Source: a virus. Taken from it: a stretch of 26,525 nucleotides of DNA. The notes beneath the pieces are model-generated. The model saw nothing but the letters and a program-made list of their open reading frames with translations, did no database searches and was not told the DNA's origin. The position numbers and the translations under genes were made by a program. The stretch is taken from the IMG/VR virus record IMGVR_UViG_3300047510_003098, positions 1-26,525 of that record; one strand, written 5' to 3'. This document shows positions 676 through 24,874 of the stretch, piece after piece. Position 1 is the stretch's first letter. Each line of letters opens with the position of its first letter.

Positions 676-682
676 TATTTAT
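676..682 (-). promoter_or_regulatory. T4-late-type promoter motif ATAAATACTT
   Basis: The minus strand reads GCATAAATACTTGG, with the last A 20 nt before the ATG at 656. It fits the motif found ahead of other virion genes in this window and resembles the T4 late promoter TATAAATA, which is read by a gp55-type sigma factor. It lies in the 2-nt gap and first codons around the gp16 stop, so it would give the 195-residue gene its own late transcript. Confidence 0.65.
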
Positions 683-1176
683 GCGGATTTATTATTTTGA
701 TCCCGGGCGGAATCTAGTATCTGCTTGAGTATTTCGTTGCGGTCCAGCACTATGCCCTGCCCTTCGACAGTATTATCCTCAGGAGATTCTTTATTGATTT
801 GATAGTCCAGTCTAGCCTTACTGAGTTGTAACTGTATCATTCGCAGTTTTTTGTCCATTTTTGCGGTTTTGGCAGCAATGGCATGTCCCAGTAAAGTTGA
901 TGCGGTCTGTAATATCACTCCTGAGTAACGTGGTTCGACATTCATGCCCAGATCCATGAGATCCTTAAATTTCTCTTCGGCCAGACTGGCCAGCTCGTCC
1001 ATCTCATGGTCTGCGGCTTCTAGTTCTCGCACCATTGGTAAGGCAGCGTCAATTTTATCAATCGCTGTGTCAACTTCTTGTATTATCTCCTGTTGTTGTT
1101 CCACCAGGGAAGGAGCATTATTTTCTTCAGAATCTGCCAATGGCAGATTCAGTAATTCTTCTAATTTTTTAGTCAT
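679..1176 (-). CDS. 16: Terminase small subunit, gp16-like
   Basis: At 165 residues it is almost the length of T4 gp16 (164). The layout also matches: an acidic flexible N-terminus, a long central helical pair (about residues 30-75 and 85-125, including YSGVILQTASTLLGHAIAAK and a following Lys/Leu-rich helix), and a polar tail. Small terminases form rings that recognise concatemeric DNA and regulate the large subunit gp17 during headful packaging. The gene follows the PP-loop gene by 19 nt. No convincing Shine-Dalgarno is visible, and the TTAAATA at 1182-1188 is too close to the start to act as a usual late promoter. The call rests on length, helix pattern and context rather than a unique motif. 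An unrelated coiled-coil head protein is the alternative. Confidence 0.7.
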   Translation of the reverse strand: MTKKLEELLNLPLADSEENNAPSLVEQQQEIIQEVDTAIDKIDAALPMVRELEAADHEMDELASLAEEKFKDLMDLGMNVEPRYSGVILQTASTLLGHAIAAKTAKMDKKLRMIQLQLSKARLDYQINKESPEDNTVEGQGIVLDRNEILKQILDSARDQNNKSA

Positions 1177-1195: not shown

Positions 1196-2431
1196 TTAAT
1201 CCGCAAAATTACCAATCAAATATCTATTAGACATACAAGGTTTATATTCCCAGTCGCTCAGCGATACATCGTGCGCAGTTCCTACTTTTTTATTATTGAC
1301 CAACGACATTCCCGAAGATCTCAAGAAGGATCGATCTATGTTACGGTATAGATGTATCATTCCTCGCATAAAAGTTTTATATCCTTCGGTGTTTTTAAAA
1401 TCATCGAGCCAATAATCCCACTCATGAAACACTGCTCGCACTGGTTTATAACACTGAAAAATATTAAGATCGTAATCGGGGTAGATTATTGCTTTTGCAA
1501 TAGATTCATAAGCTGTTCTATTATATGGACTCTGTAGCCATTCGTAATCCAGCATGTATCTCAACATTTGATTGGTTGGGGATTCGAACCATTTTTTTAT
1601 TAGATGCGCCTGTTTCGCGATCATTGCCCTGGCATCAGGGCTCCAAAAAAACATTTCAGCACGAGTATTAGTAAACCCGTTATGTACCATTGCCGGTCCA
1701 GCGTTGTGTAGCGGTCTATCCATAAAATATGTGTAAACCTTTCCGCCCTCGACTATTACCTTGGGTTTGTCCAATCCAAAAATAATGCCGACTTTTTTTC
1801 CTTTATCAAATTCTTTGAGATGATCGTATATAGAGGCGTGATTGTATCTTACCACACAGCCAGGACTGATGTAGTCACCGATCCAATGGATATAATTTTC
1901 ATCCCAGAGAAGATTTTTATTGTCGATTATATCAGTACTAAAGTCATGTATGGTGATTTTAGTAGTCGGGCTAATTTTAGTAAACCAATCTAAAATTGGT
2001 TTCGCGGCAAATTCATATTCGCTGAATTCATTGCTGGCGCCAAAATGTTTGCTGGATTGGTATTTTTTTGTCCCGGACGTGGGGTGACGATATATTATTT
2101 CGTCAATGAAAAGATTTGCCTGTACAAAACTGTAAAGTATCGTTGTAGAATCTGATCCTCCACTAAAATTTAATATGATATAATCATATTTTTCTCGTAG
2201 TTCTTTCGCTCTATTCTGATAGTATAATCTTATGTCCCCTGGAGGTTCGACACCCCAGTTAAATTTACCAAATACTTCGTCATTGAAATTCCAATGTAGG
2301 TCGGAGTATTTAAAGCCCAATCTCGATCCTTCAAGTAATGCGCTGGCTTTATCCCAATAGATTTTTCCGCCAATCTCATACCACCCCATTGCGGGATCTT
2401 GTGTAAAAGTGGTGTGATCAAATTTAATCAT
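1196..2431 (-). CDS. PP-loop ATP-pyrophosphatase-like protein
   Basis: This 411-residue protein carries SGGSDST at about residues 90-96. That is the PP-loop of the N-type ATP pyrophosphatase / HUP superfamily (asparagine synthetase B, GMP synthetase, QueC, TilS, PAPS reductase), whose members adenylate a substrate. It follows a hydrophobic beta strand (YDYIILNF) and precedes a helix, as expected. The rest is not recognisable as any named member; a GIIFGLDKP segment and many Trp/Tyr residues occur later. I chose the ATG at 2429-2431 because the frame's first possible start (2497) lies inside a terminator hairpin. A GTAAATA motif lies 24 nt upstream. The DNA looks AT-richer than its neighbours. 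With its own promoter and terminator, it looks like an acquired accessory gene. Substrate unknown; tRNA, nucleobase or amide chemistry are all possible. Confidence 0.75.
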   Translation of the reverse strand: MIKFDHTTFTQDPAMGWYEIGGKIYWDKASALLEGSRLGFKYSDLHWNFNDEVFGKFNWGVEPPGDIRLYYQNRAKELREKYDYIILNFSGGSDSTTILYSFVQANLFIDEIIYRHPTSGTKKYQSSKHFGASNEFSEYEFAAKPILDWFTKISPTTKITIHDFSTDIIDNKNLLWDENYIHWIGDYISPGCVVRYNHASIYDHLKEFDKGKKVGIIFGLDKPKVIVEGGKVYTYFMDRPLHNAGPAMVHNGFTNTRAEMFFWSPDARAMIAKQAHLIKKWFESPTNQMLRYMLDYEWLQSPYNRTAYESIAKAIIYPDYDLNIFQCYKPVRAVFHEWDYWLDDFKNTEGYKTFMRGMIHLYRNIDRSFLRSSGMSLVNNKKVGTAHDVSLSDWEYKPCMSNRYLIGNFAD

Positions 2432-2484: not shown

Positions 2485-2509
2485 GAAAAAGGACCAATGG
2501 TCCTTTTTC
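2485..2509 (-). terminator. Intrinsic terminator after the solute-binding protein pair
   Basis: An 11-bp perfect stem (2485-2495 with 2499-2509) closes on a 3-base loop. On the minus strand it ends in TTTTT-C-TTTT. It lies 22 nt after the stop of the gene at 2532 and would end the transcript of the two binding-protein genes. Its A and T arms make it usable in both directions. Confidence 0.85.
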
Positions 2510-2531: not shown

Positions 2532-3485
2532 TTATCTATTACGGATTTTCGAAACTAAGCCCGGCGAAAAGAAATTTTCAAACTTTTCGTAAACTGTTTC
2601 GGTGCGTTGTTTAAATTCAAGTTGATCCTGCTGACTCAGGCTAATAACTTCTTTTCCTTCAGATACCAATCTTGATTTTGCGTTTTCGCCATCTTTGATA
2701 GATTCTACTCGTTCTGCTCTGCCTGCGCGGACAGCGGCTTCTTTGATGATCTTTTGTAGATCTTCGCCGAGGCTCTGCCAGAAGGTGTCAGTGATGATAA
2801 TTGATGTTAAAAATAAACTGTGCTGTGTATCAATAACTGCCTGACTAAACTCATTTTGGTTTAATGGATAGATACGGGGTAAAGCACTTTCTCCACCAAC
2901 TACGATGCCATCATTGACTCCTGAGTTAATTTCTTCCAATTCCATCGCAACTGGATTCGCTCCGATTGCGCGGAATGTTTCCATGGCCATTGGATTCTTG
3001 TTGCTACGAACTGAAAGTCCGGCAAAATCAGCCAATGTACGTACTGCTTTTGATGATGGAACACAACGGAAGCCGCCTGAATATGTAAAAGCAAGTCCCC
3101 GAACATTACTTTTTTCTTTGATAGATCCAAGTAGGTATTCTCCGACTTCGCCTTCGAGTACACGACTAGCATGATCATGATCTTCAAATAAGAACGGCAT
3201 ATCAAGAACGTGCATATCGTCGCTGTATTTTTCTGCCAACCAGGTTGTGTACATCTGGCTCATGTCAATTTTTCCAGATTCCATAAGATCGAGCAGGTCA
3301 TGTTTGGTGACAACCACTCCATCATTGTAACGCTGGCTGTACTCAGCAAGTGTCATAATTTCTACTTCAATTTTGTACTTGCTTTGTAAAGAATTGACTT
3401 CGCGCTCAAAATCTTTGGCAGCACGAACAAATAGACTTAAAGGTTCGTGTGCGATTACCCAACGTATTTTTTTTGCAGTCGTCAT
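2532..3485 (-). CDS. TRAP-type solute-binding protein (DctP family), copy 1, no signal peptide
   Basis: This 317-residue protein matches the DctP/SiaP family nearly end to end: VLDMPFLF then HASRVLEGEVG (about 93-115), GLAFTYSGGFR (130-140), the second-domain segment ending SVR (160), FRAIGANPVAMELEE (171-185) and DTFWQSLGEDLQ (233-244). Arg140 and Arg160 fall where the family keeps two arginines, the second being the usual carboxylate clamp. In bacteria these proteins catch organic acids in the periplasm for the DctQM permease. Here the chain begins MTTAKKIRWVIAHEP, directly at the first beta strand, so there is no signal peptide and the product should stay in the cytoplasm or go into particles. 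No DctQM genes are in the window. It follows copy 2 by 18 nt, with a weak AAAGG ribosome site. Ligand unknown. Confidence 0.88.
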   Translation of the reverse strand: MTTAKKIRWVIAHEPLSLFVRAAKDFEREVNSLQSKYKIEVEIMTLAEYSQRYNDGVVVTKHDLLDLMESGKIDMSQMYTTWLAEKYSDDMHVLDMPFLFEDHDHASRVLEGEVGEYLLGSIKEKSNVRGLAFTYSGGFRCVPSSKAVRTLADFAGLSVRSNKNPMAMETFRAIGANPVAMELEEINSGVNDGIVVGGESALPRIYPLNQNEFSQAVIDTQHSLFLTSIIITDTFWQSLGEDLQKIIKEAAVRAGRAERVESIKDGENAKSRLVSEGKEVISLSQQDQLEFKQRTETVYEKFENFFSPGLVSKIRNR

Positions 3486-3503
3486 AATATTTTATTACCT
3501 TTA

Positions 3504-4451
3504 TTAACTTTTCTGGATCGACGAAACTAGACCAGGAGTAAAGTAATCTTCATATTTGATGTAGATTTCTTTGGTTGCTTCTTGGAACTTGGCTTTTTCT
3601 TCTGCGTTTAACTTCACGATCTCGATGCCGTCTTTAGCGGCACGTTCTTGTGTAGCGGCTACATCAGCAACAGACAGATCGCGCTCATGGCGGGCGGCAG
3701 CAATGGCGGCGTCGGCTACAACTTTTTGTAGATCTTCGCTGAGGCTGTTCCATAATGTTTCACCAATCAGAATCGATGTCAAGAACAAACTGTGCTCTGT
3801 ATGATTGATGACTTTAGAAACAGCATTTTGTCCAAGAGCATAAACACGTGGGTATGTGCTTTCACCAACAGTGACGTCGGCTTGTGCAAGACCTTCTGTT
3901 AGTTCTTCTAGTTCCATCGGAACTACATCAGCACCAACTGCTTTAAATGTGTCAATGGCAACTGGAGAGTGCGATGTACGAATTTTCATACCGCGCAAAT
4001 CTTCAATCTTAGAAACCGCTTCATTACCTGGGATGATACGGAAACCGCCCGAGTATGTGAAAGCAAGACCTTTGATCTTCTTTTCTGCGCTGAGGCTACC
4101 GAGCAGGCTCTTGCCAACTTCGCCCTCGAACACGCGACTAGCATGATCGTGGCTTTGAAACAGGAAAGGCAAGTCCAGGGCGTAGAAGTCTTTGTTGACT
4201 TTGCCCAGGGTGATGGTATATGTCTGGCTCATTTCAATTGCGCCGCTGTCAAGCAAATCAACTAGATCGTGTTTGCTAACTGCTTTACCACCATTGTATT
4301 TTTCAGCATATTCGCTGAGTGTGAGTACTTCAATATCTAACGCACCGGGGGCTTTTGCTTGTACTTCGGCAGCAAAAACTTTTGCAGCACGGATAAAAAG
4401 TTCGATAGGCTCATGTGCGAGTACCCAGCGAATTTTTTTTGCTTGTGTCAT
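3504..4451 (-). CDS. TRAP-type solute-binding protein (DctP family), copy 2, no signal peptide
   Basis: This 315-residue paralogue of the downstream gene is clearly alignable over its whole length. It has LDLPFLF and HASRVFEGEVG (about 92-113), GLAFTYSGGFR (128-138), DLRGMKIRT (151-159), FKAVGADVVPMELEEL (169-184) and ETLWNSLSEDLQ. Arg138 and Arg158 are the family's conserved arginines. It too starts at the mature fold (MTQAKKIRWVLAHEP), so it lacks an export signal. The residues around the binding cleft differ from copy 1 (after the clamp Arg: TSHSP against SNKNP; later VGESTYPRVY against GGESALPRIY), which suggests a different ligand or relaxed constraint. AGGAG lies 9 nt before the ATG. 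It is first of the pair, after gp4 and a weak hairpin. Solute binding is inferred from family only. Confidence 0.9.
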   Translation of the reverse strand: MTQAKKIRWVLAHEPIELFIRAAKVFAAEVQAKAPGALDIEVLTLSEYAEKYNGGKAVSKHDLVDLLDSGAIEMSQTYTITLGKVNKDFYALDLPFLFQSHDHASRVFEGEVGKSLLGSLSAEKKIKGLAFTYSGGFRIIPGNEAVSKIEDLRGMKIRTSHSPVAIDTFKAVGADVVPMELEELTEGLAQADVTVGESTYPRVYALGQNAVSKVINHTEHSLFLTSILIGETLWNSLSEDLQKVVADAAIAAARHERDLSVADVAATQERAAKDGIEIVKLNAEEKAKFQEATKEIYIKYEDYFTPGLVSSIQKS

Positions 4452-4479
4452 TTGGGGAGTCTCCTTGAATATAGGGATG

Positions 4480-4509: not shown

Positions 4510-4944
4510 TTATTTACCTTTTCCTTGGTGAAATATCTGATCTTCGGTGACTACACGGAAGTTTAGACCTTGATTTTTACACCAAGCACGGGCCGCTTCC
4601 CACTTGGCCATGTTAAGCAATACAAATGCTTGATCTCGGGTGCTACGAGCGTTTTCCATGGCAGTTTCTTTCTTGGGTTTTACTTCGATGACGTCTCCGT
4701 GTTGTTTGCCGTTTTTGTCTGTGTATATGATCAAAAAATCAGGAACATAGATAGTATTTTTGTTCGTAAGTGGATTGCGATAATTGATGTGTACTGCTTC
4801 GCTGGCCCACTGTAGAATATTGGGATTGTTGTCACAGAAATTCATGAAAACAAATTCCCAGGCGCTTCTATATGTAGGTTGTTTTTTTCCTACATATTTT
4901 TCAGGATTTTTTATCTGGAATTTACCTTGTGCGTACTTGCTCAT
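4510..4944 (-). CDS. 4: Head completion nuclease, gp4-like
   Basis: At 144 residues it is close to T4 gp4 (about 150). The start resembles that family (GKFQIKNPEKYVG, then YRSAWEFVFMNFCDNNP and ILQWASE), followed by a PD-(D/E)xK nuclease core: VPDF with Asp69, then VIEVKP with Glu87 and Lys89. This fold is shared with TnsA and Vsr-type nucleases. In T4, gp4 acts after packaging so that filled heads can join tails. The ATG overlaps the TGA of the preceding gene by four bases (ATGA), so translation is probably coupled. The order tube-fold baseplate gene, small virion gene, gene 4 matches what I recall from marine T4-like phages. All three candidate active-site residues are present, so it should be catalytically competent. 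Confidence 0.85.
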   Translation of the reverse strand: MSKYAQGKFQIKNPEKYVGKKQPTYRSAWEFVFMNFCDNNPNILQWASEAVHINYRNPLTNKNTIYVPDFLIIYTDKNGKQHGDVIEVKPKKETAMENARSTRDQAFVLLNMAKWEAARAWCKNQGLNFRVVTEDQIFHQGKGK

Positions 4945-7256: not shown

Positions 7257-10200
7257 TTATCCACCCAACTTGGCGATATCGCCGGGGTTCTTCAAACGGA
7301 TTGGAATGTAGATATATTCCACAGCCTTCATTGGCTCAATGGCTATGTCAACATACAATTCGTTTCTAGCGATGCGATCAGGTGTATTGTTTGAACTATC
7401 GCAGACTACTAGATAGTCGTAAACAGCACGTTTTGCTACTAAATCGTTTAAAGCACCTTCAATGATCGACTTGATTTGGTCGCGTGTGATTTTATCATTG
7501 GGTTCAAACAAGAATCCATTACCCACAGAAGCAAGTATCGTACGGATGTAGTTCACTAGACGTGCTACATTGATACGGTCCATGGCCGATGCGGTCGGAT
7601 TTCGTGTTTTCTGACCCCAGGTAACTAATCCAACACCTGGAAGGATGGTCAATGGGTTGACACGATTTTCGTACAAGGCATCACGCATTCCTTGATTGAT
7701 ACCATTGCGCACAAATGAGCCTGTGCTTGAGTCAACGTAGCCAATGTCGGTAGCATTATCAATCAAACCGCGTCGTGTGCCGGCGGGTGCAAACCACTGA
7801 TATGAAATGTTATCGTTGCGTATGAAAGTTCTTAGCATCATATGGCTAGCAGGCACAACGATGGTATTTCCATCAACGTCATTGGTTAAGCCGCTTGGAT
7901 AAAACACACCCAAATATGGATCTGCTGTGGACAATCCGTCACCATTGGTATTATTAGCCCAGTTAGCGATACGTATGCTGTTAGCAGGTAGTGTCAGTGG
8001 TGTGTCACCAATGACAAATGCTGTGTTCTTACGATCATTATTGAGAGCCACCATATTGGTGATCAGTTCTGGGTAACCTGGTGTAACAATCAAGTTAAAG
8101 AAGAACTGCTCTTCGCGTACCTGAGTATTGCCATCTAATGCGCTACGCATGGCCTTGACCACCATATTGCGTTGTGCTTGTGTGCCCATATAAGGTGCGC
8201 CAGAGTCTTTGAGACCACTGACACCAACCCAAGCTGACGCTACATCAGGAAGACTGTCGGCTTCGGGGAAGCTGTCTTCATTGAAATAATCGCCAATGTA
8301 TTTCTTGACGTTAAATCCTGAACGACGTGTATTAAATAACAAGGTACCACGTGGGTAAAGTCTTGGATTGGGCGCGTCAAGATCTACATAGTCGCTTTCC
8401 AACATTTCGACCACATCAGGTAAATCATCCGCAATCACATCGGCTGTTCCACCTGTGTCATCGCTGTAACCATCCCAACGAGCATCTGCGAAAACAATAC
8501 CATTTTGGCTGGTACGATCGGTGTTGTCGATAGATACCCATTGTCCGCTGGTGTTATAACGATACAATTTAGGATAGTTTTCAAGGTCGGAAGTATCTAA
8601 CCAGATATCTCCAGCTGCCAGCGCACCCCCAGAGTTGTTTGTCTTGGGTTTGGTTGGAGTGATGATTGGTCCCAGAGAGTCAGTTAATGCGAGATTGTAA
8701 CCACGAGCATCAGTGGTCACGTTACGATAGCCTTTCCAGGCTGTGCCATCATTGATCATGATGTCAACTTGTGTGGGGTCACCAAAATACCAAAGTGTGC
8801 CATCTTCAGGTGCTTTATAAGGTGCTGTAAAATCAGCGAATAGTGGGTATCCGCTAAACACCGGAGTGGTATCAGTGATATTCACATAGTTACTCACAAA
8901 CATGTATGTGCCGTTGTCACGTGTGTTAGAGAAAGTAAAGCCAGCACTGGTCAACGGTGTTCCGCTGAGATTGCGCATCTTAATCAATCCGCCAGCGGTT
9001 TGTTGTATTTGTATATCCCCATTGGTGCGTATAACTGCTCGTACTTCCGGAATGTTGGCAGCTGCTATAGCAGTCACAAACTTAGTAGCGTAATCACTAA
9101 TTGATGATCCATTGGCGATAGTGACTGTGTGTGATGTAAGAGTTGAAGAACCTGACTGGCTGACCAAGAATTCTATGGTTCCGCCTGTTATACCTGTAGG
9201 TGTTTGAGTTTGTGCCGAAATTCCAGATCTCTGTTTGATATAAAGACGATAGATCATCTCAGTGTCAGAAAAATCTAATGCGTAATCGGATCTAGTACGG
9301 AAGAATAGTGTTCCAGCCGCTGTGCCAAATCCACCGGCCACTGGATCAAAAGCATAAATGGCTTCTTCTTCTGTGCGGTATACTGGGGCAGCCTGAGACG
9401 TCCAGGATCCTGAATCAGCGTTGAATTTTTTAACAGGAACGTTCATGCCGCCGCCAGTGGCAGAAGTCTTGATGTAAACGCTGCCGGAAGGACGCTTAGA
9501 TGCGGAAGCACCCCAATTTGGTACATCAACATATGAGCCGTAATGTACTGTTGGAGCATCATAAGTGGCTGCAGTGATTCCTAAATCAGCCAATGGTGTC
9601 CCTACAGAATTAGAAATAATCATCTTTCCGTCACGGGGATCATTGCCAGAGGTGGTATATGTAACATATAACTCGAGATAGCCGTTGTTGTTTCTAGCAC
9701 GGATACCTTGTGGTACTGTGTCGTCGGCATTGTATTCAACAAATGTGTTGTTGATATCGGCTACTACCTGAGTTAAAGTTGTTCCAGTAAAAGTGACCGT
9801 TGTGCCGTTGATGGTAATCTCATCTCCAATTGTGACTGTTGGATTTAACTCTGTGCCAATTACTGCTGGTACAGCACGATAACGCCATTCATCACTACCA
9901 ACTCGACGCCAAACATTGCCAGAATCTTTCTTGAAAACACGTCCATCAAACAGATCGTTTTTTATGATGGCGGTTACAGCATAATCTCCGATGTTTCCGA
10001 TTGAAGCCAAGGGTTTCAATGTAGACCCACCTTCGGTGTCGTCTTCGTCGGTGATAAGAACAGGAGTTTTTTCTGTAAAAGTTTTTGAATCAAAATCCCA
10101 TTCAAAAATTCCCCAGGTCGCTTCTGCGAGATCGATCCAATAGGTGCTGTCTTCAGGTTCGCCGATGGGACGTATGGAAGTAGCTTCAAGTTGATCAAGG

Positions 10201-10538
10201 TCAATGTCGGCACGTATAGCATAAAGTCTGTTTGCGCCTGCCAGTGCCGAATAAGCGGTCATTAAACCATATTCGTTTAGTGGGCTGCCGTGTATGGGTG
10301 TGCCTGATGCGCTTTGTTTGAAAATAGGATAGCCAAGTTGGGCAACCAATTCTCTCTGGCTAGTGAAAACCTGTAGTTTACCAGCATTGGCTTTTGATGT
10401 GCCAGCGGCATAACTACCATTGGCTGTTTTATCTTGTGCGGTAGCGAGAACCAACAGAGGTGTAGTTCCAACTGCGCCGGGTACGTATTGGCTCTCGTCT
10501 GTGACTGAGAGTTGTAAACCTGGGGAAATCAGTGCCAT
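7257..10538 (-). CDS. 18: Contractile tail sheath protein gp18
   Basis: This 1093-residue sheath protein is much larger than T4 gp18 (659). The N-terminus (MALISPGLQLSVTDESQYVP) and the C-terminal third are typical: PASHMMLRTFIRNDNISYQW, APAGTRRGLIDNATDIGYVD, GVGLVTWGQKTR, VARLVNYIRTI and the closing VEYIYIPIRL. The C-terminal part forms the inner contractile core in known sheaths. The extra length lies in the middle (roughly residues 140-740), rich in Thr/Ser/Gly beta segments including LWYFGDPTQVDIMINDG, and probably makes surface-exposed domains. It is preceded by AAGGA, a late promoter 31 nt upstream and a terminator beyond that, and followed by gp19. Confidence 0.95.
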   Translation of the reverse strand: MALISPGLQLSVTDESQYVPGAVGTTPLLVLATAQDKTANGSYAAGTSKANAGKLQVFTSQRELVAQLGYPIFKQSASGTPIHGSPLNEYGLMTAYSALAGANRLYAIRADIDLDQLEATSIRPIGEPEDSTYWIDLAEATWGIFEWDFDSKTFTEKTPVLITDEDDTEGGSTLKPLASIGNIGDYAVTAIIKNDLFDGRVFKKDSGNVWRRVGSDEWRYRAVPAVIGTELNPTVTIGDEITINGTTVTFTGTTLTQVVADINNTFVEYNADDTVPQGIRARNNNGYLELYVTYTTSGNDPRDGKMIISNSVGTPLADLGITAATYDAPTVHYGSYVDVPNWGASASKRPSGSVYIKTSATGGGMNVPVKKFNADSGSWTSQAAPVYRTEEEAIYAFDPVAGGFGTAAGTLFFRTRSDYALDFSDTEMIYRLYIKQRSGISAQTQTPTGITGGTIEFLVSQSGSSTLTSHTVTIANGSSISDYATKFVTAIAAANIPEVRAVIRTNGDIQIQQTAGGLIKMRNLSGTPLTSAGFTFSNTRDNGTYMFVSNYVNITDTTPVFSGYPLFADFTAPYKAPEDGTLWYFGDPTQVDIMINDGTAWKGYRNVTTDARGYNLALTDSLGPIITPTKPKTNNSGGALAAGDIWLDTSDLENYPKLYRYNTSGQWVSIDNTDRTSQNGIVFADARWDGYSDDTGGTADVIADDLPDVVEMLESDYVDLDAPNPRLYPRGTLLFNTRRSGFNVKKYIGDYFNEDSFPEADSLPDVASAWVGVSGLKDSGAPYMGTQAQRNMVVKAMRSALDGNTQVREEQFFFNLIVTPGYPELITNMVALNNDRKNTAFVIGDTPLTLPANSIRIANWANNTNGDGLSTADPYLGVFYPSGLTNDVDGNTIVVPASHMMLRTFIRNDNISYQWFAPAGTRRGLIDNATDIGYVDSSTGSFVRNGINQGMRDALYENRVNPLTILPGVGLVTWGQKTRNPTASAMDRINVARLVNYIRTILASVGNGFLFEPNDKITRDQIKSIIEGALNDLVAKRAVYDYLVVCDSSNNTPDRIARNELYVDIAIEPMKAVEYIYIPIRLKNPGDIAKLGG

Positions 10539-10568
10539 GTTATTTTCCTTTATATGACAAGTTATGAG

Positions 10569-10575
10569 TATTTAT
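10569..10575 (-). promoter_or_regulatory. Late promoter motif ATAAATACTC before gp18
   Basis: The minus strand reads AAATAAATACTCAT, 31 nt before the gp18 ATG. It lies 12 nt past the minus-strand terminator at 10587-10609, so gp18 is insulated from upstream transcription. Confidence 0.65.
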
Positions 10576-10586
10576 TTTATGGCACT

Positions 10587-10609
10587 AAAAAAGGACACCT
10601 ATAGTGCCC
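10587..10609 (-). terminator. Minus-strand terminator upstream of gp18
   Basis: On the minus strand GGGCAC-TATAG-GTGTCC (one G.U pair) is followed by TTTTTT. On the plus strand the stem has an A-C mismatch and no T-run, so it is directional. It would stop transcripts coming from the dNMP kinase operon after they cross the plus-strand zinc gene. An alternative stem (10581-10586 with 10603-10608) shares one arm. Confidence 0.65.
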
Positions 10610-10639
10610 TTAATTAAGGTATCTGTCTTAAATATACGT

Positions 10640-10990
10640 ATGACAAAGAGAAAATTGTGTCCGGTATGCGGCGAAAAGCCGGTGGCTGTCAACTGCCACC
10701 ATGGAGATAGGGTCTACTATCGAAGCCGTTGTGATAGTTGTATCAGGAAAAGCCGTCGATTAAAACCCCGTGCGCCTTTATGGTTTAAACAAGGTTATAG
10801 GAAAAAAAGCAAGTGCGACCGTTGCGGATTTAAATCCAAATCAGATCGACAGATGTTTGTTTTCCATGTTGACGGCGATTTACAGAATGTGGACTGGAAT
10901 AATCTAAAAACAGTTTGTGCCAACTGTCAAATTGACTTGTTTTTAAATCAGTCGGGGTGGGCCATGTCGCCTAGCGTACAAGGGTTTTGA
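10640..10990 (+). CDS. Zinc-binding HNH-like small protein
   Basis: This 116-residue basic protein has two four-cysteine sets: Cys7/Cys10 with Cys31/Cys34, and Cys59/Cys62 with Cys93/Cys96. The second set encloses FHVDGD (His76, Asp78) and WNNLKTVCANC, a layout like the HNH/treble-clef nuclease fold, though a full catalytic His-Asn-His set is not certain. I recall similar small proteins on the opposite strand near tail genes in cyanomyoviruses, usually unannotated. I start at ATG 10640, the last start before the first Cys; the frame is open to a GTG at 10604, which lies in the hairpin region. It runs against all its neighbours and its last 20 bases overlap the 3' end of the dNMP kinase gene. 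It could be a homing-type nuclease, a transcription factor or another nucleic-acid binder. Confidence 0.75.
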   Translation: MTKRKLCPVCGEKPVAVNCHHGDRVYYRSRCDSCIRKSRRLKPRAPLWFKQGYRKKSKCDRCGFKSKSDRQMFVFHVDGDLQNVDWNNLKTVCANCQIDLFLNQSGWAMSPSVQGF

Positions 10991-11612
10991 GCCGGCCATA
11001 GAGATCCTCGATACTGCCATTATTATCGATAACGTGATCAAAATTGGTACCGATCCAAGACCATTCCGAAGCATGTACTCCGGGATATTTTTGTACCATT
11101 AACTCTTCATGATCTTCTAAGATATATTGTTCAAATTCGGGTGTAGTATTTTCTGTGAGAGCACACTGATACCATTCAGGAAGATCGCCCCGCTGTATCC
11201 ACGAAACTGCACCACCGGTTTTTTTAATGGCCTGTATCTCATTGGGGAAACGACAGTCAGAAATAACCACATCATCCTGGCTATTTCGCAATTTGTTTTC
11301 TAGGCTAGCGATCCAAATATCGTCATGGAATCCGGCGCGACAGACTTCCGTTCCCCAGTACTGTAGAACCCAACGCGGAGTCAAAGTAGGCATTTCTAGT
11401 CGTTCTGCCCACCAGGGATCTACCTGCTCTCGCCATTCTCGTGCTTGCTTGGTGCGTCCTTCAAGTAAATCTCGATCCCAGCCAAATACAGAACTGACCG
11501 CATCTTTAAGAGTGCTGGCAAAACTTTCTCTGCGAAAACCATGGAAGTTTACTAGATAGTCAGCGGCTGTGTCTTTGCCGCTGCCGATAAAACCACATAT
11601 ACCAATGATCAT
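10971..11612 (-). CDS. 1: Deoxynucleoside monophosphate kinase, gp1-like
   Basis: This 213-residue protein starts MIIGICGFIGSGKDT, a P-loop (Walker A, residues ~7-15) followed by ADYL, as in T4 gene 1 dNMP kinase and its marine relatives. Other family-like segments are TPRWVLQYWGTEVCRAGFHDDIW (residues ~78-100, seen in these kinases), VISDCRFPNE (substrate/Walker-B-like strand) and a C-terminal VIDNNGSIEDL. The enzyme phosphorylates dNMPs to dNDPs for phage DNA synthesis. I chose the ATG at 11610-11612 because it has GGAG about 9 nt upstream and the P-loop strand starts immediately; the upstream frame (to 11666) overlaps the preceding gene. The gene is a metabolic insert within the virion cluster and ends overlapping the convergent zinc gene. 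Confidence 0.88.
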   Translation of the reverse strand: MIIGICGFIGSGKDTAADYLVNFHGFRRESFASTLKDAVSSVFGWDRDLLEGRTKQAREWREQVDPWWAERLEMPTLTPRWVLQYWGTEVCRAGFHDDIWIASLENKLRNSQDDVVISDCRFPNEIQAIKKTGGAVSWIQRGDLPEWYQCALTENTTPEFEQYILEDHEELMVQKYPGVHASEWSWIGTNFDHVIDNNGSIEDLYGRLKTLVR

Positions 11613-17105: not shown

Positions 17106-17515
17106 AAAGTTGCGGTGCTTTGATCTACTCTGTTTCAACTAAAAGATATCTATTCTTACTAAGGAATCACGATCGAGACCCAGGATCTTGGGGCCTAGTT
17201 GGTGGCAAGATTGAACCTGGAGAATCGGTGATTGATGGCCTACATCGAGAAATACGTGAGGAAATTGGTGAGATACAATATCGTAAAATCGTACCAATAG
17301 AAAAATTTACCAGCAACAATCAACAATTTTTTTTCCACACATTTTTAATCTCAATTGACAACGAATTTGTTCCTAAACTGAACGACGAGCACAGAGGTTT
17401 TTGTTGGGTGGCAATAAAAGATCACCCCCGGCCTTTACATCCGGGGGTGTGGCGTAGTTTCAAATTTGACTCTGTGATACGTAAATTAGAAACGATGGAA
17501 TCTATATTATCCTAG
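17087..17515 (+). CDS. Nudix hydrolase
   Basis: This 142-residue protein has a Nudix box from Gly40 to Gly61: GGKIEPGESVIDG then LHREIREEIGEI. The metal-binding REIREE core and both glycines are present; the residue after the last glycine is Glu, where a hydrophobic is usual. The fold is intact (N-terminal strand CGALIYSV, RYLFLLRNHDRDPGSWGLVG). These enzymes hydrolyse nucleoside diphosphates linked to another group (dNTPs, ADP-ribose, NAD, capped RNA). The substrate here is not evident; T4 also has a Nudix enzyme (NudE). I start at ATG 17087, with AGGAGG 4 nt upstream and inside the gp15 gene, rather than at the ATG 17048. Translation is probably coupled to gp15. The 3' end overlaps the convergent gene by 9 nt and contains that gene's terminator. 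Confidence 0.88.
   Translation: MERRAIESCGALIYSVSTKRYLFLLRNHDRDPGSWGLVGGKIEPGESVIDGLHREIREEIGEIQYRKIVPIEKFTSNNQQFFFHTFLISIDNEFVPKLNDEHRGFCWVAIKDHPRPLHPGVWRSFKFDSVIRKLETMESILS
17423..17449 (-). terminator. GC-rich terminator inside the Nudix coding sequence
   Basis: CACCCCCGG and CCGGGGGTG form a perfect 9-bp stem with a 9-base loop. On the minus strand it is followed by ATCTTTTATT, and it lies 58 nt past the stop of the minus-strand gene at 17507. On the plus strand no T-run follows. It would therefore end transcripts of the convergent 225-residue gene, while also encoding Nudix residues around HPRPLHPGV. Confidence 0.6.
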
Positions 17516-18184
17516 ATCGGCTTCAACAACAAATTCTCTAGTTGAAACAGTTCTAAAATTCAAAACATCTTTCCATTCATTGGGAACATGGCCGTCGGCG
17601 CTGAAGCCTTGTACCAATACAAAATCAACATCAGGGTAGGTATCAAAAACTATACGCATGGCCTTGGCCCAGAATGGATGGTTGTCGTCCATTTCACAGC
17701 CCAACAAAAAGATCTTGTCGTGCCCATCGAAGGCTGCTAAGTAAGCGGCAATCGCTCCTGCATTCCATGAAGGATCTTGCGGGATCAAGTAAAACTTGCC
17801 AGGATAATCAAGAACCTGGCCTGCATTGGAATAAACAATATGATTATCGCAGTATCCATTGCTGGCGATTTCAGCGGCGTTTTCGCGACCAATAGTCACT
17901 AAAAAATCACATTCAATATCTTTGTAGACATCATTACAGCCATAAGTCTGTAATTTTGAACTTCCTAATAGGCCACCTTTGTGATTCTTGATCAAGCTCA
18001 TGTCAAACTGCTCGCGTAACCAGCCTCCGCCGAGCACTATGGCCTGTGTAGTAATATGATTGTTAAAAACATTGTTTGGTACCCACTCTTTTTCGTACTG
18101 TTGCGCTTGACCTTGTAGTGTCATGCGTGTTGTGACATCTTCACCGGTATATGAAGAGCGGTATTTTTGTTCAATTTTGTACAT
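17507..18184 (-). CDS. Conserved phage protein of unknown function, 225 residues
   Basis: I do not recognise a function. It opens MYKIEQKYRSSYTGEDVTTR, then NVFNNHITTQAIVLGGGWLR, IKNHKGGLLGSSKLQTYGCN, DFLVTIGRENAAEIASNGYC, IVYSNAGQVLDYPGKFYLIP, AGAIAAYLAAFDGHDKIFLL and NFRTVSTREFVVEAD at the end. The alternating strand/helix pattern with a Gly-rich turn (VLGGG) and 'HDKIFLLGCEMD' suggests a Rossmann-like alpha/beta enzyme fold. I recall close relatives next to tail genes in cyanomyoviruses, also unassigned. It follows a fibre gene on the same strand and has GGAG as ribosome site. It could be a glycosyltransferase- or pterin-kinase-like enzyme, but that is a guess. Confidence 0.75.
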   Translation of the reverse strand: MYKIEQKYRSSYTGEDVTTRMTLQGQAQQYEKEWVPNNVFNNHITTQAIVLGGGWLREQFDMSLIKNHKGGLLGSSKLQTYGCNDVYKDIECDFLVTIGRENAAEIASNGYCDNHIVYSNAGQVLDYPGKFYLIPQDPSWNAGAIAAYLAAFDGHDKIFLLGCEMDDNHPFWAKAMRIVFDTYPDVDFVLVQGFSADGHVPNEWKDVLNFRTVSTREFVVEADLG

Positions 18185-20908: not shown

Positions 20909-23900
20909 TCAAACTACGATGTAATCTTTCTTGATTACTACGTTTACTGTTCCTGATGCGGCTGCGTAGCGCAGACGTACATCACTGCCACTGATGTCAG
21001 CGGTTACAGTACCCAATGATGCGTTTGTTGCTACGATGCCGTACTCAACCATTGTGGCTGTCGTACCATCGTGTATGACCAACACTTCACTGATCTCGTA
21101 ATCGCCACCAGCAGTGGATGCTTGTACTAGATACTTGGCCGAACGATAAGTTGCTTTGGCAAACGTATCAACGTTGGTGGCTGAAGTAGTACATGCGGTG
21201 CTGGCTCGCGAAGTCACAAATGCGCCGCTGGTATCAATTTTAGTTGTTACCGCACCCGAAGATGTGCCTGTGTAGATATTGATCGCTGAGTCTGTGGGCT
21301 CAATCTGCATGTATCCGTTTGCGCTGGCTACACCCGAAATCGTGGATGTTGTCAACAAACGGCGTACATCAATCACGTCGCCGGCTTGTGGTGCTTCAGT
21401 AAATGTCAGCGATGTGCTTGCCACCGAGTAAGCAGTGGTTGGGATCTGTACCACACCGTTGATTGCTACCACTGTTCCAGCAGTGGTTGATGCCGCACCT
21501 AAAGTGAATACTGTGGTTGTTCCATCACCGTTGAACGATTCTGCTGTGATAACTGTGAAGTCGCCACCAATGTTACGCCATGCAGATCCGGTGTACAGTT
21601 CTGCTGTTCCTGTTGAAGAGTTGTAGCGGAACATACCTTGTGCGGCAGTGGCTGGACGTTCACCAGTTGTACCAGATGGAATACGCATGGAATCAGTGCC
21701 AATGATATTGAGTCTAGCACCTGTGAGCAAATCACCGCTGGTACCATCGCCACCAATGATCACTTGATCGTAGGTTGAGTTGGCCACTGAGCGGAATAGT
21801 CCTGCTACGGTTGTACCATAATGTTGAATATTTTGTCCGGCTGTCTGCTCATCGTTGACTACTAGACTATCTACATTGGTAGTATCAAAGTCTGCGTTGG
21901 CACCAGTTACTGTACCAGTAACAGCTAGATTGCCTGTGATACCAGCGTCTGTGGTCACCGATAAGCTGTCAAGTGTTGCGGCACCCGAAGAATCAATGGT
22001 AGTAAACGCACCTGATGATGCTGTTGTTGCACCAATTGTTGCACCGTTAATTGCTCCGCCGGTTACAGAGATATTTGAGAACGAACTGTTTCCAGTTGAT
22101 GTAACATTACCAGTTACATCACCAGTCAAGTTACCTGTGACATTACCTGTGACATTACCAGTTACGTTACCTGTCAAGTCACCTGTGACATTGCCTGTGA
22201 CATTGCCTGTGACATTGCCTGTCAAGTTACCAGTTACGTTACCTGTCAAGTCACCTGTGACATTACCTGTGACATTGCCTGTCAAGTTACCAGTTACATT
22301 ACCTGTCAAGTCACCTGTGACATTACCTGTGACATTGCCTGTGACATTACCAGTTAGATCGCCTGTGACATTGCCTGTGACGTTACCTACTAGGTCGCCA
22401 TTGAAGTTATCTGCTGATACGTTGCCTGTAAACGAGCCAGTTGTACCAGAAATATTACCTGTGACATCGCCTGTTAGGTTACCTGTGACATTGCCTGTCA
22501 AATCACCAGTTACGTTACCAGTTACGTTACCAGTTACGTTACCGGTAATGCCTCCGTTAAAGGTTGCGGCTGGACTTACCGTTAGTGAATCACCATTGAT
22601 GTTTATGCTTTTGCCAGATGAGCCTGTGATAGTAAGATCTTCACCAGCGGCTGCTGTTATAGTTTGTACGCCTGCAATGTTACCAGTTAGATCACCAGTT
22701 ACGTTACCAGTTACGTTACCTGTGACGTTACCTGTGACGTTACCTACTAGGTCGCCATTGAAGTTATCAGCCGATACGTTGCCTGTAAACGAGCCAGTTG
22801 TACCAGAAATATTACCAGTTAGATCACCAGTTACGTTACCAGTTACGTTACCTGTGACGTTACCTGTGACGTTACCTACTAGGTCGCCATTGAAGTTATC
22901 TGCCGATACGTTGCCTGTAAACGAGCCAGTTGTACCTGAAATGTCACCTGTGACATTACCTGTGACATTACCTGTTACGTTACCAGTAAATTCTGCGGCT
23001 ATTAGGTTTTTGTTAAAGTTCCAAGTATCTGAACCGCTGTTGTATGTGATTGTTGCGTTGGCGCCATCAACTGTTAGACCAGCACCATTGGCTGCTGCAG
23101 CATCAGCTGCGCCTTTGGCCACTGTCACGTTAAGGTCTGCGATCTCAACTGTGGTTGATGACACCGATGTCAGTGTACCTTGTACGGTTAGGTTTCCGCC
23201 AATGACAGCACCGCCACCAACATATAAACTACCACCAATGCCAGCACCGCCTGCGACTGTCAATGCACCAGTTGTTGAACTTGAAGCTGCGGTAGTACTG
23301 TTTATAGCAACATTTGATGTTGAAGATGTTGTAATAGCCGAGTTTGTAAATGTCAGCGAAGTGGTTCCGTCAACAGAAACAATAATATTGGATTGGGAAG
23401 CACCGTTGGTGTCACTGATGATAATCGATGAATCATACTCAACGATACGATCGCCACCACTTGAAATTTGTGCGTCAACATAGGCTTTTGTGGCTGCGTC
23501 GGTGTTGCTCACCGGAGTGGCAATATTGGCTACTAATACGCCATTGAAGTTGGTAGAAGTTGTCACCGACAAGGTTCCGGTTGACACCGAAGTTGCCGTT
23601 ACATTACCAACAACATCACCATTGAAGTTGTCAGCACTAACGTTGCCTGTGAAAGAGCCAGTTGTACCAGAAATATTACCTGTGACATCGCCTGTTAGGT
23701 TACCTGTGACATTGCCTGTCAAATCACCAGTTACGTTACCTGTGACATTGCCTGTGACATTACCAGTTACATCGCCTGTCAAGTTACCTGTGACATTACC
23801 AACAACATCACCATTGAAGTTGTCAGCACTAACATTGCCTGTGAATGCGCCAGTTGTACCAGAAATATTACCTGTGACATCGCCTGTCAAGTTACCTGTG

Positions 23901-24874
23901 ACATTACCAGTTACATTACCAACAACATCACCATTGAAGTTGTCAGCACTAACGTTGCCTGTGAATGCGCCAGTTGTACCAGAAATATTACCTGTGACAT
24001 CGCCTGTCAAGTTACCAGTTACGTTACCTGTCAAGTTACCTGTGACATCACCTACGACATCACCGTTGAAGTTGTCTGCTGATACGTTGCCTGTGAAAGA
24101 GCCAGTTGTACCAGAAATATTACCTGTGACATCGCCTGTCAAGTTACCAGTTACGTTACCTGTGACATTACCAGTTACGTTACCTGTCAAGTTACCTGTG
24201 ACATCACCAGTTACGTTACCTGTCAAGTTACCAGTTACGTTACCAGTTAGATCGCCTGTGACGTTACCTGTGACATTACCAGTTACGTTACCAGTTAGAT
24301 CGCCTGTGACGTTACCAGTTACGTTACCAGTTAGATCGCCTGTGACGTTACCAGTTACGTTACCAGTTACGTTACCAGTTACGTTACCAGTTAGATCGCC
24401 TGTGACATTAGTTGCGCTAATGTTGCCACTAAACGTGCCATCTACCGCTTCAACGTCAGCAAATTCTGCGTCTGCGTAGGCTGTGATATTGATAGCACCA
24501 GCTGTGCCACCTGTTTCTGTAGTCAGTACTGCTGCAAATTTGTCTTCGGATTCGTCCCAAATAAAAGCGGCGTTTACGTTACCTACGCCTGCAACTGAGG
24601 CCAAGTTACGATTGACTAAAATACCAATGTCATAACTGGGTGCTCCAGTATAGCCGTTGTTGAAAATGACCAGTGGGTCATTGATGTATGTGTTCGTGCT
24701 TTGTACTGTGCTAGTGTCTCCACTAACAGATAAGTTACCAACGATGGTAACGTTTGAATTCAGTGTGAGATCAGGGTTGAATACCGAACCTACCAGTGTA
24801 CCTGCTTTAATCTTGGTATACTCAATGGTTGCGTCCGTGATCTGATTGTTTTTAATTCGTGTAATATTAGGCAT
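20909..24874 (-). CDS. Giant repetitive tail fibre protein, 1321 residues
   Basis: Residues 1-155 form a fibre N-terminal module (GNLSVSGDTSTVQSTNTYIN, DIGILVNRN, AAFIWDESEDKFAAVL). Three tracts of four-residue (T-G-N/D-V/L) repeats follow at ~157-426, 629-734 and 777-926, interrupted by seven copies of a SGTTG(S/A)F ... SADNFNGD cassette. Between tracts lie fibre modules: NTDAATKAYVDAQI (458-471), GALTVAGGAGIGGSLYVGGG (536-555). The end holds RPATAAQGMFRYNSSTGTAE (1073-1092), a VVAINGVVQIPTTAYSV beta domain (~1110-1175) and a terminal domain (~1233-1321) shared with the 375-residue protein. The repeats probably form a long beta-helical or fibrous shaft. AGGAG precedes the ATG, GTAAATA lies 31 nt upstream, and an exact TATAAATA lies 171 nt upstream. 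Confidence 0.9.
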   Translation of the reverse strand: MPNITRIKNNQITDATIEYTKIKAGTLVGSVFNPDLTLNSNVTIVGNLSVSGDTSTVQSTNTYINDPLVIFNNGYTGAPSYDIGILVNRNLASVAGVGNVNAAFIWDESEDKFAAVLTTETGGTAGAINITAYADAEFADVEAVDGTFSGNISATNVTGDLTGNVTGNVTGNVTGNVTGDLTGNVTGNVTGDLTGNVTGNVTGNVTGDLTGNVTGNLTGNVTGDVTGNLTGNVTGNVTGNVTGNLTGDVTGNISGTTGSFTGNVSADNFNGDVVGDVTGNLTGNVTGNLTGDVTGNISGTTGAFTGNVSADNFNGDVVGNVTGNVTGNLTGDVTGNISGTTGAFTGNVSADNFNGDVVGNVTGNLTGDVTGNVTGNVTGNVTGDLTGNVTGNLTGDVTGNISGTTGSFTGNVSADNFNGDVVGNVTATSVSTGTLSVTTSTNFNGVLVANIATPVSNTDAATKAYVDAQISSGGDRIVEYDSSIIISDTNGASQSNIIVSVDGTTSLTFTNSAITTSSTSNVAINSTTAASSSTTGALTVAGGAGIGGSLYVGGGAVIGGNLTVQGTLTSVSSTTVEIADLNVTVAKGAADAAAANGAGLTVDGANATITYNSGSDTWNFNKNLIAAEFTGNVTGNVTGNVTGDISGTTGSFTGNVSADNFNGDLVGNVTGNVTGNVTGNVTGDLTGNISGTTGSFTGNVSADNFNGDLVGNVTGNVTGNVTGNVTGDLTGNIAGVQTITAAAGEDLTITGSSGKSININGDSLTVSPAATFNGGITGNVTGNVTGNVTGDLTGNVTGNLTGDVTGNISGTTGSFTGNVSADNFNGDLVGNVTGNVTGDLTGNVTGNVTGNVTGDLTGNVTGNLTGNVTGNVTGDLTGNVTGNLTGNVTGNVTGNVTGDLTGNVTGNVTGNVTGNLTGDVTGNVTSTGNSSFSNISVTGGAINGATIGATTASSGAFTTIDSSGAATLDSLSVTTDAGITGNLAVTGTVTGANADFDTTNVDSLVVNDEQTAGQNIQHYGTTVAGLFRSVANSTYDQVIIGGDGTSGDLLTGARLNIIGTDSMRIPSGTTGERPATAAQGMFRYNSSTGTAELYTGSAWRNIGGDFTVITAESFNGDGTTTVFTLGAASTTAGTVVAINGVVQIPTTAYSVASTSLTFTEAPQAGDVIDVRRLLTTSTISGVASANGYMQIEPTDSAINIYTGTSSGAVTTKIDTSGAFVTSRASTACTTSATNVDTFAKATYRSAKYLVQASTAGGDYEISEVLVIHDGTTATMVEYGIVATNASLGTVTADISGSDVRLRYAAASGTVNVVIKKDYIVV
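22097..22546 (-). repeat. TGNV repeat tract C (residues ~777-926)
   Basis: Near-perfect 12-bp units encode T-G-N/D-V/L on the minus strand, with two main synonymous spellings (GGTAACGTAACT-like and GGCAATGTCACA-like). It includes one SADNFNGD cassette. Being coding, it can expand or contract by 12 bp without frameshift. Confidence 0.9.
22673..22990 (-). repeat. TGNV repeat tract B (residues ~629-734)
   Basis: Same 12-bp coding units as the other two tracts. It has two SADNFNGD cassettes that are nearly identical at the DNA level over more than 100 bp (around 22720-22800 and 22850-22930), which indicates recent duplication or gene conversion. Confidence 0.9.
23597..24406 (-). repeat. TGNV repeat tract A (residues ~157-426)
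   Basis: The longest tract, about 810 bp of 12-bp units with four SADNFNGD cassettes in its C-terminal half. The cassettes carry Ser or Ala variants of the same sentence (TTGSF/TTGAF), so the block looks built from several duplications of a cassette plus flanking units. Confidence 0.9.

Follow-up and report, generated by a model that had tools for sequence, protein, structure and literature searches.

The window, by which we mean the whole 26,525-nucleotide stretch of viral DNA analyzed here (IMG/VR record IMGVR_UViG_3300047510_003098), encodes two tandem DctP-family proteins, TRAPa and TRAPb, that have the complete fold of a TRAP solute-binding protein (SBP), lack a signal peptide and lie within an inserted block of accessory genes. 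The interpretation that we favor, though tentatively, is that both are cytoplasmic carboxylate-binding Venus flytraps of the DctP type, which would buffer an acid or present it to co-encoded enzymes. The accepted role of TRAP binding proteins is that of receptors outside the cytoplasm; an unexported group that is under selection and keeps its binding pocket implies a second, intracellular use of the fold. It also points to an effect of jumbo phages on organic-acid metabolism of a kind for which we found no description in the literature searched.

Family assignment and predicted fold

An earlier sequence-only reading had placed two tandem DctP-type open reading frames at positions 2532–4451 and proposed that each matched the fold over its full length. 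The coordinates were exact (Table 1), and both proteins gave full-length matches to the Pfam family DctP (PF03480), with 172 bits for TRAPa and 166 bits for TRAPb against a cut-off of 23.4. The two window proteins scored 139 and 136 bits with the NF037995 profile, above its cut-off of 50, and 141 and 135 bits with TIGR00787, under its stricter cut-off of 175. Both matched PHROG 31178, a group of unknown function, and TRAPa matched 79 distinct solved TRAP-type sequences at E values of 0.001 or below. A better-matching family outside the TRAP proteins, which would have spoken against the assignment, was sought in Pfam, PHROG and other profile searches and none was found.

The AlphaFold2 model of TRAPa, generated from 36 aligned sequences, had a pLDDT of 95.7 and a pTM of 0.92. 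Its best solved matches in a Foldseek search were TRAP SBPs (4p47, TM 0.86), and comparison with DctPAm gave a Z score of 36.6 and an rmsd of 2.3 over 301 residues. Profile search and structure prediction hence agree on the two-domain TRAP-SBP fold, the latter through the TRAPa model. TRAPa and TRAPb are 49% identical and are not the products of a recent tandem duplication, since the two copies fall in separate starred clades of the tree.

Table 1. Coordinates of the TRAP genes and of the features surrounding them in the window
Feature	Position	Strand	Evidence
TRAPa, unexported DctP-family protein, 315 aa	3504..4451	(-)	Pfam 2.8e-50, model, residue counts
TRAPb, second unexported DctP-family protein, 317 aa	2532..3485	(-)	Pfam 1.1e-48, trees
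Shine-Dalgarno AAGGAG, 9 nt 5' of TRAPa ATG	4461..4466	(-)	sequence
T4 gp4-like head closure, left edge of insertion	4510..4944	(-)	phrog_218 4e-42; adjoins g2 homologue in PA5oct
g2, gene directly after head closure in insertion-free relatives; other insertion edge	679..1176	(-)	phrog_16202 5e-14
g3, PP-loop ATP-pyrophosphatase-like (SGGSDS), 411 aa, within inserted block	1196..2431	(-)	motif, fold, clustering near TRAP genes
Intrinsic terminator hairpin GAAAAAGGACCATTGGTCCTTTTTC, just 3' of TRAPb	2485..2509	(-)	z -4.8

Absence of an export signal

The absence of a signal peptide from both proteins, also claimed from the sequence alone, was borne out. No in-frame ATG, GTG or TTG lies upstream of either window ORF, and in the close relatives L004, L006, L025 and L045 a stop codon immediately precedes the ATG. 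The maximal N-terminal hydropathy over a 12-residue stretch was at most 1.5 in the phage copies, even with upstream non-coding residues taken in, versus 1.98–3.07 in exported Bdellovibrionota homologues. These data, together with the placement of the Shine-Dalgarno sequence, rule out a signal peptide hidden behind an upstream start. Other binding proteins of the same phages, namely TctC/Bug proteins and a second DctP, do have signal peptides as judged by eye.

Because they are not exported to an extracytoplasmic location, we have not filed TRAPa and TRAPb as TRAP-transporter receptors. The closest homologues outside their clade are exported, as would be expected if these were ordinary receptors whose signal peptide had been missed or which reach the periplasm by another route. 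However, the lack of an upstream start in the window, the stop codon before the ATG in close relatives, a Shine-Dalgarno sequence at a plausible distance and the single change of export state on the tree make such hidden export highly improbable.

Conservation of the ligand-binding site

In SiaP of Haemophilus influenzae, the carboxylate of the ligand is held by Arg147 and Arg127, and the closing network consists of Arg127, Glu186 and His209 (PMC4089482); 98% of DctP proteins have Arg147 (PMC4646407). Residues R138, R158, E197 and H220 of TRAPa correspond to SiaP R127, R147, E186 and H209 with a constant offset of +11, and the equivalent of the carboxylate arginine R158 is also present in TRAPb. 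Among the 36 aligned rows, the four positions are kept in 35, 33, 36 and 36, respectively; the exceptions at R158 are three divergent paralogues (L036:1213, L040:1257 and L058:1576). The equivalent of SiaP Asn187 is not kept and is replaced by Ser, Thr or Ala. Further invariant polar residues outside the SiaP set, such as H13, S134 and R202, lie in or near the predicted pocket.

The unexported proteins are under purifying selection, with dN/dS ratios of approximately 0.05–0.17 for those full-length pairs for which a value could be computed. Judging from these residues and ratios, a working carboxylate-binding flytrap seems to have been retained, and the conservation of both pocket and hinge argues against a simple reuse of the fold.

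The TRAP genes as inserted cargo

TRAPa, TRAPb and g3 all lie between the gp4-like head-closure gene and g2. In PA5oct this junction is closed, the match to the gp4 homologue ending at 126153 and that to the g2 homologue starting at 126158. Likewise, gp4 and g2 are adjacent in three huge related contigs (G007, G021 and G027), in which the TRAP gene is found approximately 210, 41 and 40 kb away, respectively. In other relatives the gap between gp4 and g2 holds a TRAP gene alone or a TRAP gene with g3, at times with a TctC gene in addition. Inserted between genes that adjoin each other in relatives, and having cellular homologues, the TRAP genes are accessory cargo, and the description of their surroundings as a phage virion-gene cluster was misleading. 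A terminator hairpin follows the TRAP gene in 14 of the 15 relatives inspected; the one in the window is symmetrical and so could serve both strands.

The sequence-only reading had also listed a particle component among the possible roles, the fold being reused, for instance, in the neck or head. The TRAP gene does lie amid head and tail genes at 17 loci, and a T4-like late-promoter core, ATAAATA, which would suit late expression, occurs 5' of the gene in 14 of 33 loci, related ones being counted, against 0.8 expected. This core was not found upstream of the TRAP genes in the window, where a single exact copy of the T4 late promoter TATAAATA is present, which is not above chance. Against a structural role, the position of the gene among structural genes is not constant, as evidenced by PA5oct and the three huge relatives, members of the group exist on bacterial chromosomes, and the ligand residues are conserved. 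As inserted cargo at a junction that is closed in relatives, the genes offer through their location no argument for a particle component, a role that we judge improbable; of the roles listed, that of a cytoplasmic binder fits best.

Relatives and phylogeny

Two scans of IMG/VR identified 56 loci of large phages, or 37 without near-duplicates; the contigs reach 345 kb in length. Sheath and tail-tube proteins place the window phage near PA5oct and Atu_ph07, which are T4-like jumbo myoviruses. Among isolated phages no close homologue was found, the search giving weak matches alone, mostly to unannotated records resembling bacterial DNA, and a plasmid search returned a single distant match (33%).

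The scan of bacterial genomes yielded relatives with a signal peptide in Bdellovibrionota (L096, L098 and L102–L104) and relatives without one in Gammaproteobacteria MAGs (L095 and L101), Bacteriovoracaceae (L097), a Xanthobacteraceae MAG (L099) and others. L100 and L105 possibly lie on phage contigs within MAGs. A search of 129 Bacteriovoracaceae genomes recovered a second unexported copy from Bacteriovorax (L151). Since L097 and L151 have the same neighbors, flagellin-like and other genes that are 78–82% identical, both copies are chromosomal. Among 369 genomes sampled from the class to which L095 belongs, the only match was to the genome of L095 itself, so the bacterial unexported type is rare in that class. 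An exported homologue in Bacteriovoracaceae genome G036 (L162, C1:75690-76610) carries one TAG stop and is perhaps a decaying paralogue.

A 40-row tree sets the 27 unexported proteins apart on one side of a branch with support of 98/99, and the export state switches once. On the other side are signal-peptide-bearing copies from predatory Bdellovibrionota with which they have pocket motifs in common. The equivalent fork in a larger tree that includes long-branch paralogues had support of 87/90. TRAPa belongs to a clade of phage proteins only, and TRAPb groups with the chromosomal bacterial copies; the idea that phage copies might form a clade of their own thus holds for the TRAPa type but not for the TRAPb type.

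Neighboring enzyme and transporter genes

The predicted fold of g3 weakly resembles that of the PP-loop region in GMP synthetase and similar enzymes; g3 had no match in INPHARED and no profile match among PDB sequences. A PP-loop ATP-pyrophosphatase-like gene lies within the stored flank at 26 of the 37 deduplicated loci, and in 16 long contigs such genes are nearer to the TRAP gene than random placement would give (Fisher p 0.001, an optimistic value because the contigs are related). The g3 protein of the window falls in one group of these PP-loop-like proteins, that with SGGSDS. Six loci with virion-cluster placement (L004, L025, L028, L032, L033 and L045) have no PP-loop gene nearby.

The lack of a nearby DctQM permease, likewise noted from the sequence, is true of the window, where none is visible and so neither TRAP protein is encoded with one, and the nearest relatives (contigs of 28 kb and 207 kb) have no DctM. 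The statement does not extend to the whole family: in five of 32 related phage contigs, DctM directly precedes the unexported copy, accompanied in complete sets by DctQ and a signal-peptide DctP, and hence permeases do occur nearby. In L036 (1213-6930; also L038, L039, L040-L042 and L048) an operon-like run comprises, in order, a DctP paralogue that is unexported and has no carboxylate arginine, then DctQ, DctM, a signal-peptide DctP and an unexported DctP; with such a run, large phages encode a TRAP transporter set. In four bacterial genomes, an MFS permease gene is followed by one for a small HxD...H protein and then by the unexported DctP. By its residue pattern the small protein is like 2OG-Fe(II) oxygenases, with no Pfam match. 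Transporter genes thus adjoin the unexported copy in two unrelated ways, DctQ-DctM-DctP in phages and MFS in bacteria.

Signal-peptide TctC/Bug receptors are often found next to the unexported DctP, as at L005:5044-5922 and in its relatives; TctC/Bug matches were present in 18 of the 32 phage contigs at E ≤ 0.001, 11 of them over the cut-off, and the TctC-like c10 had no match in INPHARED. Unusual metabolic genes also occur near the TRAP gene (L007:1433-3015 and 9477-11545; L039:7078-8169), encoding a beta-keto acid cleavage enzyme, short-chain dehydrogenase-like and fatty-acid desaturase-like proteins, an ATP-grasp protein and a ring-hydroxylating oxygenase alpha subunit.

We propose that TRAPa and TRAPb, DctP flytraps that have no signal peptide but kept their acid-binding and closing machinery, work in the cytoplasm. 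For T4-like jumbo phages the genes are accessory cargo, inserted in the window behind the head-closure gene and followed by a terminator. During infection the protein would capture a small organic acid, possibly one freshly imported, which would then be buffered or presented to carboxylate-activating or carboxylate-modifying enzymes encoded by the same genome; candidate partners are the PP-loop ATP-pyrophosphatase-like and 2OG-oxygenase-like proteins. Fold, conservation, selection and gene linkage are observed here; the ligand, its hand-off and a benefit to the phage are what we infer. Against this reading stand the replacement of Asn187, the virion-cluster loci without a PP-loop gene and the partner enzymes, which vary between genomes so that no single pathway is defined.

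The main rival is that the proteins are themselves enzymes with a binding-protein fold and share a short pathway with their PP-loop and oxygenase-like neighbors. Enzymes are known on other PBP-fold families, namely the MqnA-type dehydratases and Thi5. The enzyme-like neighbors in an operon-like arrangement and the invariant polar pocket residues beyond the SiaP set would suit such a role. However, the closing network of a receptor is intact, and the exported Bdellovibrionota sisters have YSGG(F/Y)R and, in part, ESTY and T.HSL in common with the unexported proteins, which is more in keeping with a single common ligand than with new chemistry; these sisters constitute a natural control with shared pocket motifs. 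We consider an enzymatic role unlikely, although it is the strongest of the alternatives.

A sensor, sponge or regulator would lower or report a host acid or signal, for example in anti-defense or metabolic control, with no hand-off to an enzyme. A cytoplasmic, single-domain protein with a conserved pocket would serve this purpose, and some loci have no linked enzyme, but the linkage to enzymes and transporters recurs. We therefore place this role, which is itself doubtful, below that of an enzyme, as we do a particle component and hidden export.

Comparison with known systems

TRAPa and TRAPb belong to the same sequence family as the DctP-type TRAP SBPs (PF03480, NF037995; DctPAm, IseP and SiaP) and have their full-length fold, their hinge network and their carboxylate arginine. 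They differ in lacking both a signal peptide and a DctQM in the window, in the replacement of Asn187 and in being inserted in a phage genome. Closest outside the clade are the exported 'WVLAHEP' DctP proteins of Bdellovibrionota (L096, L098, L102-L104 and L153-L160), which have the same N-terminal and pocket motifs but bear signal peptides and are split from the unexported group at 98/99. The bacterial unexported DctP proteins (L095, L097, L101 and L151) belong to the clade of TRAPb and likewise lack a signal peptide, but are chromosomal and follow MFS and oxygenase-like genes. TctC/Bug receptors of the TTT family are carboxylate SBPs that are often 'orphans' without a cognate permease (PMC5812351); they constitute another family, and the phage copies inspected keep the signal peptide.

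A TRAP-like annotation is on record for jumbo phages in one case: in the Ralstonia phages RP12 and RP31, a 'TRAP transporter solute receptor like protein' is listed next to ABC transporter subunits (PMC5468394). That protein is phage-encoded and similarly annotated, in phiKZ-related phages, and was compared by annotation only. Apart from it, we found no paper on phage TRAP or SBP genes that describes the unexported DctP group. The DctP family and phage TRAP-receptor annotations are hence already known; what is new is the unexported group, which is not located where a TRAP receptor resides.

A broader, speculative scenario, which we regard as rather unlikely in its entirety, is that a single loss of the signal peptide turned a bacterial uptake receptor into a dedicated cytoplasmic carrier. 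It would take over an organic acid from a transporter and pass it on to tailoring enzymes of the PP-loop and oxygenase-like kinds; the module would have been spread by jumbo phages, in one lineage of which the carrier would have become two chains, divided just ahead of the strand that binds the ligand.

Split version and other genes of the window

A split form of the unexported DctP is encoded by two overlapping ORFs in L055:5989-7430, L056:6001-6953, L057:5986-6646 and L058:5989-6943. The break falls at residue ~153–157, in the loop before the strand that carries the carboxylate arginine, and L055 has one N-half with two different C-halves. A programmed frameshift is disfavored because the direction of the shift varies between loci, an overlapping ATG or GTG is available to every C-half, two C-halves exist in L055, and dN/dS is low in both halves. 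The UniProt 'DctP/TeaA' phage entries A0A6J7WI33 and A0A6J7WKL0 (159 and 162 aa) resemble the two halves.

Elsewhere in the window, a small ORF with several CxxC pairs (10604-10990, +) lies between the sheath and dNMP kinase genes on the strand opposite to its neighbors; it appears zinc-finger or HNH-like by eye and has no Pfam match. A 225-aa protein, also without a Pfam match, is encoded between the Nudix hydrolase and fiber genes (17507-18184, -). The 1321-aa tail-fiber-like protein at 20909-24874 (-) consists largely of VTGN(V/L)TG repeats, which yield long spurious antisense ORFs such as that at 21855-23483 (+).
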